DNA of 64,000 nt, taken from positions 62,001 through 126,000 of the forward strand of contig JACRMT010000004.1 of the NCBI GenBank assembly GCA_016214855.1. The letters run 5' to 3'. The position numbers were made by a program, and so were the translations under genes. The notes under the pieces were generated by a model that saw nothing but the letters and a program-made list of their open reading frames with translations, was not told the DNA's origin and did not search any database. This document shows, piece by piece, positions 40,656 to 46,376 of this stretch; positions within the stretch are counted from its first letter, which is position 1; each line of letters opens with the position of its first letter. The DNA is from Nitrospirota bacterium (GTDB lineage: Bacteria > Nitrospirota > Thermodesulfovibrionia > Thermodesulfovibrionales > UBA6898).

Positions 40656-42113
40656 TTATTTTTTTGCTGCTGTCCTTTTCTCGGACCTGCCAGGCTGTTC
40701 GCTCAGTGTTCTTGTGCCGACTCTCATGGGATCGCCTGCATAGCCAAGGGCTTTCCAATCGAGTCGTTTGCCTTCCATGTGACAGTCCTTGCATTTTAGC
40801 GACTGATCCTTTGGAGCAACCTCATGGTTAATGCTGCCATAGAAGGCTGTTTCGACGAATTGATGTCTGCCACTATAGGGAAGTCCAGAGCCTTTGGCCC
40901 CGTCAATGAGCCCTTTTTCCCAGTCAAAATGCTCCCAGACGCCTTTATAGGTCTGAGGAATGAGAAGGTATTGGAATGCGCTGTCCATGGGCTGTCTGCC
41001 GGTATGCACCTTAAAGGGATAGATCTTTGCGCCGCGGTCCTTTATGCTTCCTGTCGGCTTTGAGATATAGACGGTCTTTGAGGGGTCCTTAATCTTGTCG
41101 CCCTTCATGTACCGCTCGATCTTTCCGTCATACCAGGCATAGGTCGGGATAACGTTCATTTCCCATACAAAGTTACCTTTGTGTTTTGCATAGGTTTCCT
41201 TGCCGAACTGCTCCTCGGGCTCAATATCTTTGCCGAGCGTGGACCAGTCCCATCGCATCTTTGTGGCCTGACCCCTGGCGAACGCCGGTACATGACAGGT
41301 CTGGCATGCAACCGACTGCATATGCTGTCCGAGAACTTTCCTGGATGCCGAGTCCTTATGCGGGTCCCTATGGCAGTCCTCGCAGCTCACTCTGCCGTCA
41401 TTAGTCGCAAGGAAGGTTGATGCGCCTGCGATCCTGTGGTCCTTGACCGTGTGACAGCCCTGGCAGGACATGTCAGTAACGCCTCCCATATGAACGTCAT
41501 GGTCGCGCGTCGGTTTTGCCATGGTCGAATCAAGGTCGCCGTGCTTGACCGCATCGCCCCCTCCGCCATAGAAGTGGCAGACGCCGCAGTTATCGCGATT
41601 GGGTGATGCGACGCTCTGGGCAGCCTTTGTGAGATTCATCTTGCCCTGTTCCATGAGCTTGCGGTCCGGCTCTCCGGCAAGACCCTTACGGTAATTCCCT
41701 TCCTTTGCGTGGCATATCAGGCAATCTATCTTGGTCTTGTCCGTGAAGGTGAAGGTATTGTCCACCCAGCCATAGCTTGGGTGACACTTGGCACAGAACT
41801 CCTCGTTTGCGCACTTCTCACCTCCCTGGATCGAGATGCAGAAGTTGTTGATCATGTTCAGCTTGCCGTATTCTTCCTTGCTGTTCTCCATGCCCTTGAT
41901 CGTCCTGGGCAGCCCTTTCCATTTCCAGTGAGGTGTCTTCATGAAATCCTCTGCCTGCTTGTCATGACACTGGAGGCAGGTCTTTGTAACATCTTCGCCT
42001 GATTTGAAGGGACCTTTCAGATACTGCGCGTGGTCCGCAGCATGCGAGATGCCGATAACCATGCATAACGACGTGACAGCTGCAGACGCGATTCTGAGAA
42101 CAGTGACATTCAT
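40656..42113 (-). CDS. Octahaem tetrathionate-reductase-family cytochrome c
   Basis: A 485-residue periplasmic protein with a signal peptide (about 1-26) and exactly eight CXXCH haem sites: CLQCH, CAKCH, CLICH, CGVCH, CQGCH, CEDCH, CQTCH and CKDCH. Spacing, length and the long haem-free stretch before the last site resemble the octahaem tetrathionate reductase (OTR) group, whose members reduce tetrathionate and in vitro also nitrite or hydroxylamine. ATG 42113 has GGAGG six bases upstream; the longer frame from 42137 lacks one. It is first in a minus-strand set with the small exported protein and the porin-like barrel. Confidence 0.88.
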   Translation of the reverse strand: MNVTVLRIASAAVTSLCMVIGISHAADHAQYLKGPFKSGEDVTKTCLQCHDKQAEDFMKTPHWKWKGLPRTIKGMENSKEEYGKLNMINNFCISIQGGEKCANEEFCAKCHPSYGWVDNTFTFTDKTKIDCLICHAKEGNYRKGLAGEPDRKLMEQGKMNLTKAAQSVASPNRDNCGVCHFYGGGGDAVKHGDLDSTMAKPTRDHDVHMGGVTDMSCQGCHTVKDHRIAGASTFLATNDGRVSCEDCHRDPHKDSASRKVLGQHMQSVACQTCHVPAFARGQATKMRWDWSTLGKDIEPEEQFGKETYAKHKGNFVWEMNVIPTYAWYDGKIERYMKGDKIKDPSKTVYISKPTGSIKDRGAKIYPFKVHTGRQPMDSAFQYLLIPQTYKGVWEHFDWEKGLIDGAKGSGLPYSGRHQFVETAFYGSINHEVAPKDQSLKCKDCHMEGKRLDWKALGYAGDPMRVGTRTLSEQPGRSEKRTAAKK

Positions 42114-42290
42114 GCAGACCTCCTGCCCGACGGGCATTCTACAAGCGATTTGTTAATAAGAAATGAATGGTTGTCTGTTCTGCAGCGCTCTGGGAAAGGG
42201 AAGTGATGGAATGAAGAAACAATAACCGGAATATGATCATCTGCTGCAACAGATACGCATTCTCCTTGTGAATCCGCTTTCATCAAGAGT

Positions 42291-42316: not shown

Positions 42317-42441
42317 CAATAAGATTCTTAACTAAATACATAAGAACATATGATTATTCTAATTTGATGATAGGCTGTCCGCCTCTGCTCACCGAAAACC
42401 GGCTGGTCTTCTATCTGATGTGAGTCCTGCGGGGAGGTGTA

Positions 42442-42450
42442 TGGTAAAAT
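42442..42450 (+). promoter_or_regulatory. Extended -10 box of the amidohydrolase gene
   Basis: TGGTAAAAT ends 8 bases before ATG 42459, with no good -35. It supports 42459 rather than upstream in-frame starts at 42420 or 42441. Confidence 0.45.
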
Positions 42451-42458
42451 GTTGCGCA

Positions 42459-43517
42459 ATGCATAATGAAAAAAAGAAAATGACGTATCGGGCACAGATC
42501 ATAGGAAGTGCTGAAAATGATCTTGTGCTGCCGCAGTTCCTTGGCATTGAACATGGCATAATCCGGTCCCTTTCCAGCCAGAGCCCGAACGATCCGGAGC
42601 AGGAGATCGTTGATCTCGGGCAGCTCGTAATAGCACCGCTTTTTTGCGATCATCACCTTCATTTTCCCGGAAATTCCGCGTTAAAGGCCGATGACGCAGG
42701 ACGCCGGATTCTCTGCCATGGCATAGGGAGAGTATTTGAAGGAGGTGATAAGGCCGGCCGAGGGCTGACGGTCAGAGATGCACTGAAGGGCAGACTGCAG
42801 ATAAGGGCAGCCGGCTATGCGCTATTCAGGAAGGGAGGGTACGGCACTGCCATCGGGCAGGGTGTTGAAGATGCGGAGGACGCTTTAAGAAGGATCGACG
42901 AGCTTCAGTCCCTGTCAGTTGATTATATAAAGATCATTCATTCCGGTATTTACGAGCCTGAGTCAGACCTGATCACGGCTGGCGGCTTTGGTACGGCAGA
43001 GCTGGGGCGCATTGTGGACCATGCAAGGAAGAGAGGCCTTGATGTCTATTGTCATGTGAATGGTGACAAGGAGGTTAAGGAGGCGGTTGACGCAGGCGTA
43101 ACCGCTGTTATCCATGGCCTGCGCGTAAGCGATGCAACGCTGTCAGCCATGGCTGCCAACAACGTAGCATTCATACCTACCGTGCATGCATTTCATGGCC
43201 TGCATGCCATTGCCAGGTCCGATACCGCAAGGCAGAACATAGAGAGGTCGGTCAACGGGCATCTGTCTGCAGTCAGCAAGGCCTATGAACTTGGCGTGAG
43301 GATCCTGCCGGGAAGCGATGCCGGCCCCAGTTTTTTACCCTACGGCAGTTCGTATCTGGCGGAGCTTGGCCTCCTTGAGAAGGCTGGCATCCCGTATCCA
43401 AATCTCATTCGGGCTGCTTCCATGACTGCTCTGCAGGTGAATGCCTCAGCGGATTTTCTGGTCCTTGATGGTCTGTCGGTAACCCGGGTCGTGATGGCCG
43501 GGCAGGTGGTATACTGA
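42459..43517 (+). CDS. Amidohydrolase-superfamily metal-dependent hydrolase
   Basis: About 352 residues. The metal-binding HxH is in CDHHLHFPG; later ligands are likely H in YCHVNGDKEV, H in AVIHGLRV and D in LPGSDAGPSF. The C-terminal strand (ADFLVLDGLSVTRVVMAGQVVY) is the beta-sandwich end typical of imidazolonepropionase/prolidase-like amidohydrolases. Substrate is unknown. The start is uncertain between 42459 and 42480. Confidence 0.82.
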   Translation: MHNEKKKMTYRAQIIGSAENDLVLPQFLGIEHGIIRSLSSQSPNDPEQEIVDLGQLVIAPLFCDHHLHFPGNSALKADDAGRRILCHGIGRVFEGGDKAGRGLTVRDALKGRLQIRAAGYALFRKGGYGTAIGQGVEDAEDALRRIDELQSLSVDYIKIIHSGIYEPESDLITAGGFGTAELGRIVDHARKRGLDVYCHVNGDKEVKEAVDAGVTAVIHGLRVSDATLSAMAANNVAFIPTVHAFHGLHAIARSDTARQNIERSVNGHLSAVSKAYELGVRILPGSDAGPSFLPYGSSYLAELGLLEKAGIPYPNLIRAASMTALQVNASADFLVLDGLSVTRVVMAGQVVY

Positions 43518-43601: not shown

Positions 43602-43997
43602 ATGAGGACCATATCACTATTTTTGTTGGGACTGCTGATGCTTGTCTCTTCGGCTGCAGCTGCCGAGACCTTCAAAACAGTAACAGCGGACGAGCTGAAA
43701 AAGATGATCGACAGCGGAAAACAGATCACTGTTGTGGACACCCGCACAGAGGAAGAATTCAGGCAGGGTCACCTGCCAAAGGCAGTGAATATCCCGCCTG
43801 AAAAGGTGAATAACATCGGAGATCTTCTCCCGAAGGCCAAGAACAGGCCTGTTGTTTTCTATTGCAGGGGCGTTGGCTGAGGTCTTTCAAAGCAGGCTGC
43901 GGTCGCAGCCGAAAAGGCGGGATACACAGACATACAGATCTTTCAGGCCGGTTATCCCGAGTGGACTGCAAAAGGGTATAAGACTGTAACTAAATAA
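43602..43997 (+). CDS. Periplasmic rhodanese-like selenoprotein (in-frame UGA as Sec93)
   Basis: Reading the TGA at 43878-43880 as selenocysteine gives a 131-residue single-domain rhodanese. It has a signal peptide (about 1-21, ending AAAA), the conserved VVDTRTEEEFRQGHLPKAVNIP segment, and the active loop C88-R-G-V-G-U93. After UGA the frame continues GLSKQAAVAAEKAGY and ends in FQAGYPEWTAKGY, the normal rhodanese C-terminus, to TAA at 43995. Ordinary homologues have cysteine at position 93 (CX4C). A hairpin with a GGUC loop lies 14 bases after UGA. Standard calling would truncate the gene at 92 residues. GGGAGG precedes the ATG. Confidence 0.85.
43895..43910 (+). promoter_or_regulatory. Candidate bacterial SECIS hairpin 1
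   Basis: GGCTGC and GCAGCC form a 6-bp GC stem closing a GGTC loop, starting 14 bases after the UGA. A guanine at the loop start and this distance fit bacterial SECIS elements; the E. coli fdhF loop also contains GGUC. Confidence 0.65.
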
Positions 43998-44016: not shown

Positions 44017-44382
44017 ATGCGGCGTATTGTTATCCTGTTCTCAGTATTACTTCTGTTCTGCGCGTCTGCTTATGCAGGGGAGAGAAGCGCGTCCGGGTCT
44101 GTTGTCCTTGCCGAACGGCAGGCAGCGGATGTCCGGGTCGTCATGTACATGACAAGCTGGTGACCCTACTGCAGAAAGGCCCGTGAGGACCTTAAGAGAC
44201 TTGGTGTACAGCTGGTTGAATACGATATTGAAAAAGATGAAACAAAGAAAAAGGAAATGAAGAAGCTGACCGGCGGCTCGACCATGGTTCCGGTCATCGA
44301 TATAGAGGGGATCGTCATCAGGGGCTATGAGCCTGACGAGATCAGGCATGCTGTCGAGAAGACGAGGAAAGGCCCGAGATAA
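44017..44382 (+). CDS. Periplasmic glutaredoxin-like selenoprotein (UPYC, Sec49)
   Basis: With TGA at 44161-44163 read as selenocysteine, ATG 44017 to TAA 44380 encodes 121 residues. A signal peptide (about 1-20, ending AYA) is followed by a thioredoxin fold: VRVVMYMTSW then U49-P-Y-C52, the glutaredoxin CPYC site with Sec in place of the first cysteine. Later come VEYDIEKDE, the cis-proline region STMVPVIDIEG and IRGYEPDEIRHAV, all normal glutaredoxin features. GGGAG lies 6 bases before the ATG. The gene starts 19 bases after the rhodanese and ends 2 bases before the TlpA-like gene. Standard calling misses it entirely. Confidence 0.87.
44176..44193 (+). promoter_or_regulatory. Candidate bacterial SECIS hairpin 2
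   Basis: AAGG/CCTT and CC/GG pair with one C-A mismatch, closing a GTGA loop, starting 12 bases after the UGA. Weaker than hairpin 1 but correctly placed, with a leading loop G. Confidence 0.45.
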
Positions 44383-44384
44383 CA

Positions 44385-44900
44385 ATGCCGAGGTTCTGCT
44401 CTGTCCTCCTTCTTCTCATCTGCCCGGTTTTGTGTTTCCCTGTCAGGGCCTTTTCCGTCACCCGGGGAGAAGCAGCTCCTGCATTTGCGCTTTCCGATCT
44501 TCAGGGCATGAAGCACACACTTTCCGATTATACCGGCAAGGTTGTCTTGATCAACTTCTGGGCAAGCTGGTGCGGAGAATGCATTACCGAGATGCCGTCG
44601 CTGAACACGGTACATACGCAGTTCAGCGACAGGGGGCTTGCGGTGCTCGGCGTGACCGTTGACAGAATCACTGAAGATGCGCGCGCTGCGGCAAAGAAAG
44701 CCCGTATTGCCTTTCCGATACTCGTTGATGCGAGGGGCGAGGTCTTTATCAGAAAATATGCGGTGATCGGTCTTCCGACAACGATCGTTCTGGACAGAAA
44801 GGGCGTTATACGGGAGATCCTCGTCGGTTCTCAGGATTTTCAGGAAAAAAAGATCAGGGACATGCTAGTTTCCTTACTGAATGAAAGAACTGCCCCTTAA
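44385..44900 (+). CDS. TlpA-like exported thioredoxin
   Basis: A 171-residue thioredoxin-fold protein with an N-terminal signal or anchor (about 1-24). The redox site is WASWCGECI (CxxC) after VVLINFW, and the cis-proline is in IGLPTTIVLD, typical of TlpA/ResA proteins. It starts 2 bases after the selenoglutaredoxin gene, so the three proteins are made together and exported. A role as electron donor or partner to the two upstream proteins is inference. Confidence 0.92.
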   Translation: MPRFCSVLLLLICPVLCFPVRAFSVTRGEAAPAFALSDLQGMKHTLSDYTGKVVLINFWASWCGECITEMPSLNTVHTQFSDRGLAVLGVTVDRITEDARAAAKKARIAFPILVDARGEVFIRKYAVIGLPTTIVLDRKGVIREILVGSQDFQEKKIRDMLVSLLNERTAP

Positions 44901-45427: not shown

Positions 45428-46288
45428 TTATTTGTTTTGATGGCAGCCTGTGCAGATACGCCCTTTGGTGAGCCGCAGTTTCTTGTATGAGTCAGCACCT
45501 ACAGCCGCTGCGCTTTTCACGATGATGCCTGCCTGATGGGGATTATGACAGGTTGAGCAGGTGATCCTGCCCCTGTTCAGAAGCGGCAGCAGCACGCCCT
45601 GTTCTTTGGCATGCTGCTTCATGAATGCCAGTGTCTGACGGCGTGGCTTTATCTGAAAATGTGCATTAAAGAAGCTGGCAGGCATTGGAGGGTGACACCT
45701 CCAGCAGATGAATGCTACATCAGCCCTGAATATGACCTGTATACGGGTGGCCCGCTGGTCAGGAACGGCAGCGTGACAGACGAGGCAGATCGGTCCGTTG
45801 TTTACCACCCGAATGGTCCCGTCAGGTTCTGTCATGACATGAGGATTAAAGCTCAGGTCCAGATCTAAGGTATGGCATCGCGAACATATCTCCCTTCGGT
45901 CTGCATAAGGTGCGCCGCGGAGCAGCCCGGGATTGGAGAGCCTGTTCGTCCCGTGCGCCTCATGACAGGTAAGGCATTGCATCTCGCCGTCCAATAGGGG
46001 AAATCTGCTGTCTATGTCCCTGTCAGGAGTAAAGTTTACCGGGTGATGGGTTTCGCTATAGTGGTGGCAATCCATGCAGACGGAGGACATGTCCAGATCC
46101 GGCGCAACTGCGGATGCCTCGTCATAGGCAGGCGTCGATGTCCGGTGGCACATGACGCAATCCGTATGATACTGGTCAATGGCCTGTTGAGCTGCTTCAC
46201 TGTAAACGACAACAGACAAAAGAAGGAGCGTCAGAAAGATCAGACAAAAAACAATGTGCCGTGTCCATCCATCAGCTGCTGCTCTCAT
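45428..46288 (-). CDS. Membrane-anchored octahaem cytochrome c
   Basis: A 286-residue protein with an N-terminal membrane anchor (about 10-30) and eight CXXCH motifs: CVMCH, CMDCH, CLTCH, CSRCH, CLVCH, CWRCH, CSTCH and CTGCH. HH and CHEAHG/CHNPHQ neighbours resemble the doubled-CXXCH type of electron-transfer cytochromes. ATG 46288 follows GTGGAGGCAGCG; a longer frame from 46321 lacks a site. It probably passes electrons between the inner membrane and periplasmic partners. The exact partner, possibly the octahaem reductase 3 kb away, is inference. Confidence 0.88.
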   Translation of the reverse strand: MRAAADGWTRHIVFCLIFLTLLLLSVVVYSEAAQQAIDQYHTDCVMCHRTSTPAYDEASAVAPDLDMSSVCMDCHHYSETHHPVNFTPDRDIDSRFPLLDGEMQCLTCHEAHGTNRLSNPGLLRGAPYADRREICSRCHTLDLDLSFNPHVMTEPDGTIRVVNNGPICLVCHAAVPDQRATRIQVIFRADVAFICWRCHPPMPASFFNAHFQIKPRRQTLAFMKQHAKEQGVLLPLLNRGRITCSTCHNPHQAGIIVKSAAAVGADSYKKLRLTKGRICTGCHQNK

Positions 46289-46376
46289 TCGCTGCCTCCA
46301 CGGGTAAGGATTTAGTTCCATGGTGTGATGCGGTCGTATTCTTGCCGTTGAAAATGAAATTGAGATGAACTCCTTA

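Follow-up and report, generated by a model that had tools for sequence, protein, structure and literature searches.

A predicted exported selenocysteine-containing rhodanese in a Nitrospirota gene cluster with a second predicted selenoprotein

Genes and features of the locus

The window, i.e. the whole 64,000-nucleotide stretch of Nitrospirota DNA that was analysed, contains a short gene that starts with ATG, ends with TAA and carries exactly one internal TGA (Table 1). We translated it with this TGA read as selenocysteine (Sec, U). The read-through protein matched the Pfam profile PF00581 with 76.8 bits over profile positions 1–102 of 102, that is, over the full rhodanese domain. An AlphaFold2 model, for which 14 relatives served as input, reached a mean pLDDT of 88.9, and Foldseek searches with this model returned solved rhodanese domains. 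The active-site loop reads C88-R-G-V-G-U93 and is placed by the model between strand 84–87 and helix 91–105. Counting the catalytic-position Cys88 as loop position 1, four residues lie between it and the TGA-encoded residue (CX4U). The full domain, together with a catalytic-position Cys in a strand-helix loop, assigns the protein to the PF00581 fold. Solved structures with a CX4C loop exist (BH2092, 3nhv/3o3w). At the N-terminus we found a signal-like segment, MRTISLFLLGLLMLVSSAAAAE. Judged from its sequence, the product is a single-domain rhodanese that is predicted to be exported and to be either periplasmic or membrane-anchored. The first-pass annotation had described a rhodanese with an in-frame TGA at 43878, after which the frame resumes as conserved rhodanese sequence through to the C-terminus. 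The complete domain with its one TGA at residue 93 bears out both statements.

Nineteen bases 3' of the rhodanese gene begins a gene for a glutaredoxin-like (Grx-like) protein that has an in-frame TGA of its own. The initial claim that a TGA falls on the redox residue in two neighbouring genes thus held. The TGA of the Grx-like gene is retained in relatives, while L063 has TGC (Cys) instead; the hairpin of this gene is weak by folding energy, with a positive z. In another relative (L027:1960-2322) the Grx-like neighbour has U-T-Y-C in place of U-P-Y-C. Only two nucleotides past the Grx-like gene starts a third gene, encoding a TlpA/ResA-like protein (ResA-like match of 105.6 bits, under the cut-off), which is probably a redox partner.

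The cluster recurs in close relatives: the pair of Sec-rhodanese and Grx-like genes is syntenic in L027, L028, L029 and L059–L064, and the TlpA-like gene also belongs to the cluster in L027, L059 and L063. The gene upstream of the rhodanese gene is, by sequence type, presumably amidohydrolase-like. Multihaem c-type cytochrome-like proteins are encoded on either side of the cluster on the minus strand (40656–42137 and 45428–46321). When the window was scanned by eye for further in-frame TGAs in redox-like contexts, none was convincing beyond those of the two genes.

Table 1. Features of the rhodanese gene cluster (positions refer to the window).
Feature	Position	Strand	Description
Gene upstream of the rhodanese gene	42420–43517	+	ORF; same neighbour in L027, L029, L059, L060, L063 and L064
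Rhodanese-like protein, predicted to contain Sec	43602–43997	+	131 aa, translated with TGA=U; Sec is residue 93
In-frame UGA (U93), active-site loop position 6	43878–43880	+	TGA in orthologues, Cys (TGT) in others
Bacterial SECIS apical hairpin	43895–43910	+	Stem GGCUGC/GCAGCC, loop GGUC; 14 nt past the UGA
Second predicted selenoprotein gene, glutaredoxin-like, exported (predicted)	44017–44382	+	121 aa, UPYC; PF00462, 60.7 bits
In-frame UGA of the Grx-like gene (Sec49, U-x-x-C)	44161–44163	+	Context MYMTSW-U-PYC
TlpA/ResA-like thiol-disulfide oxidoreductase, exported (predicted)	44385–44900	+	WCGEC; PF00578, 100.8 bits

Conservation of the UGA, its hairpin and the Sec machinery

A single draft genome might carry an error, and the TGA could then be a sequencing mistake or a nonsense mutation in a pseudogene. 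To this the homologues speak directly. We searched 295 genomes from the phylum for the protein, allowing read-through of stop codons. The matches listed comprised about 66 with exactly one internal TGA and one with two, while no TAA or TAG was found inside the gene in any of them. In the loci inspected residue by residue (about 26), the TGA occupied the same loop site; these loci included single-domain orthologues as well as members of a second family, whose proteins are about 460 aa long and contain several rhodanese domains. Orthologues with TGA at position 93 shared 36–72% identity. Stops scattered elsewhere in the gene were not seen in the loci inspected in this way. The recurrence of the same TGA in independent species and families, internal stops that are TGA only among the matches listed, and a protein that is conserved past the TGA up to its C-terminus all contradict a pseudogene or error, as do the hairpin covariation and the full Sec machinery described below. 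We regard this explanation as extremely improbable.

Homologues also carry Cys at this site. Three orthologues (L035, L036 and L039) have TGT; since they are nested within the Sec clade, we read them as Sec-to-Cys replacement through a single base. A paralogue in the same genome (L005) has a CX4C loop (YCNGVKC). Thus, the TGA stands where homologues have the second Cys of CX4C, as the first-pass annotation had proposed. In the aligned family this position holds Sec or Cys only. One orthologue (L034:1492-1890) has a loop that is longer by two residues (YCHGGTSGU, Cys-x6-Sec) and retains both the TGA and a matching SECIS stem.

A GC hairpin with a GGUC loop, 14 bases past the UGA and resembling a bacterial SECIS, had been pointed out beforehand and lies exactly at that position. 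The folding energy of the single sequence was only mildly unusual (z about -1.3). Since single-sequence folding is unconvincing alone, we relied on covariation and on synonymous-codon controls. Among 17 gapless orthologues, pairing at the six stem pairs was seen in 97 of 102 cells. Double-sided changes in the stem numbered 18, and the covariation score was 0.411, versus 0.094 in shuffles. The stem falls within conserved Ala codons; we therefore randomised codons synonymously according to the codon usage of the window itself, which gave an expectation of 76.1 paired cells (sd 2.8, maximum 85 in 2,000 trials) versus the 97 observed. The wobble pair (columns 21–30) occurred as U-A, G-C, A-U, C-G and G-U among the orthologues. 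Pairing beyond the synonymous expectation, together with covariation at wobble sites, identifies the hairpin as a SECIS element. By these comparative measures the RNA structure itself is under selection and the hairpin is no by-product of the protein sequence.

The genome (3.3 Mb, estimated to be 100% complete), whose closest named relatives are metagenome-assembled genomes (MAGs) of Nitrospirota, was examined for the Sec machinery. On contig C20, selB (375 bits) adjoins selA (616 bits). A tRNA-Sec (selC) scored 70.9 bits versus a gathering score of 47, and selD (343 bits) has its own in-frame TGA in a GCAGU motif. All four exceeded their curated cut-offs, and the gene content indicates that the organism has the capacity to insert selenocysteine. 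The selD gene (L056, minus strand of contig C2) encodes a selenoprotein itself (GCAGUAAK), and a NifS-like cysteine desulfurase gene is located nearby. In other tested genomes with a single-domain TGA gene, selB was present except in the MAGs G215 and G041. Neither selA nor selB was found in these two assemblies, and tRNA-Sec was found in both, which fits the loss of an adjacent selA-selB pair from the assembly. G215, which belongs to the same genus as the source genome, retains the TGA although selA and selB were not found in its assembly.

Since several genes carry an in-frame TGA, one might also suppose that TGA encodes another amino acid, for example Trp, throughout the genome. However, TGA ends more of the long frames in the window than any other stop codon (51 of 99, counted mechanically with spurious ORFs included), the in-frame TGAs were found at Cys sites of redox motifs, where they swap with TGT or TGC, and selA, selB and tRNA-Sec are present. 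Such a reassignment appears to us hardly credible. We rejected both the pseudogene and the reassignment.

What is looked for in a bacterial selenoprotein, namely a conserved redox-site UGA with Sec or Cys homologues, a SECIS hairpin just 3' of the UGA, and selA, selB, selC and selD in the genome, was found here. The probable selenoprotein of the first-pass annotation is thus supported by the machinery, the conserved TGA and the covarying SECIS. The gene very probably encodes a genuine selenoprotein, with UGA-93 being decoded as Sec by SelB and tRNA-Sec at the downstream SECIS.

Further Sec rhodaneses were observed. On contig C23 (L004:364-1716), a protein of about 450 aa with multiple rhodanese domains also has the CX4U loop (FYCGGVTURLS), and proteins resembling it, with one TGA each, occur in dozens of Nitrospirota genomes. 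A rhodanese-rubrerythrin-type fusion on contig C18 (L003:1459-2271) has its TGA at the catalytic Cys (IAYUGSGVRSR) and fits the UxxG form, while a small lipoprotein-like rhodanese on contig C8 (L006, about 1342–1809 of the reverse complement) is of the CxU form (YCAUKNQETS). Taken together with the rhodanese of the window, the latter two indicate that in one genome Sec occupies position 1, 3 or 6 of the loop, depending on the rhodanese.

Possible chemistry of the Cys-Sec loop

Cys88 would accept the sulfur, as the corresponding Cys usually does in rhodaneses, and its redox partner may be Sec93 at loop position 6. The Sec93 selenolate could attack a persulfide or mixed disulfide on Cys88; sulfide or thiol would depart, and a Cys-Sec selenenylsulfide would remain. 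This bond would then be reduced by the co-encoded Sec-glutaredoxin-like protein and the TlpA-like thioredoxin, and the protein, with its rhodanese fold, might serve to reduce persulfides or disulfides or to relay sulfur. A Cys88-Sec93 redox pair is supported most strongly by the restriction of position 93 to Sec or Cys in the aligned family. Classical rhodaneses use loop position 6 for substrate selectivity, with residues of the Arg/Thr/Ser type; a redox role at this position is therefore something we infer. The resolving-Sec mechanism as specified seems to us possible, at best evenly balanced.

Alternatively, the protein may be an ordinary sulfurtransferase with a real Sec, in which Sec93 serves only to tune Cys88 or to bind substrate, without forming a bond to the Cys. 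For classical rhodanese catalysis the first Cys suffices, and loop position 6 is known to tune substrate preference. However, a restriction to Sec or Cys is expected of a redox pair, the neighbouring genes encode thiol oxidoreductases, and the NCBIfam family TsoB fuses a related domain to a DsbD-like part. We consider an ordinary sulfurtransferase conceivable but rather unlikely. The most far-reaching version of the redox proposal is likewise tentative and somewhat doubtful: a periplasmic selenium-dependent persulfide/disulfide reductase, with a rhodanese fold, a catalytic Cys and a resolving Sec at loop position 6, that would be served by a dedicated Grx-like/TlpA-like operon in Nitrospirota with three Sec loop positions.

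Comparison with known selenoproteins and families

Standard annotation would end the rhodanese protein at residue 92, and an NCBIfam scan of the protein yielded no model above its cut-off. Given this truncation and the missing model, the Nitrospirota family is probably mis-annotated. The thiosulfate sulfurtransferase models of GlpE and PspE scored far below their thresholds (23.9 versus 102 and 22.1 versus 102 bits, respectively). The best NCBIfam match was TsoB (NF045694), with 71.5 bits over TsoB 34–155 versus a cut-off of 805. TsoB shares the Sec at loop position 6, but it is a rhodanese/DsbD fusion-like protein, about 572 aa long, in which both positions are Sec, whereas the window protein is single-domain and has Cys first and one Sec. 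NF041203 (LYCAU) likewise describes a small Sec rhodanese, of which type L006 is a relative in the same genome; its Sec is at loop position 3, in contrast to the CX4U of the window protein, which reached 53.9 bits versus a cut-off of 115. The Grx-like protein resembles the Sec glutaredoxin/Uxx-star glutaredoxin-like families NF041212 and TIGR02196 in its Grx fold and U-x-x-C motif; its NCBIfam matches were of the YruB type and the Uxx-star glutaredoxin-like type. Unlike these families it is predicted to be exported, and it remained under both cut-offs (61.5 versus 66 and 69 versus 88.55).

A 2026 review (PMC13188914) lists five forms of rhodanese selenoproteins, among them CxU as form 3 (LYCAU) and UxxxxU as form 5 (TsoB). 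Form 1 is UxxS (WP_010941598.1, Zhang & Gladyshev 2005, as tabulated in that review). By motif alone, the window protein matches form 1, with a single Sec followed by x-x-S (U93-G-L-S96) in a PF00581 domain, but its preceding CX4U motif is absent from the description in the review. As far as reviews on the catalogued Sec-rhodanese forms go, the contribution of selenium to rhodanese chemistry has not been determined, and the conserved Sec-rhodanese/Sec-Grx/TlpA cluster offers a compact, testable system for it. Sec rhodaneses are thus already catalogued (PMC13188914), and the protein encoded at 43602–43997 is a further member.
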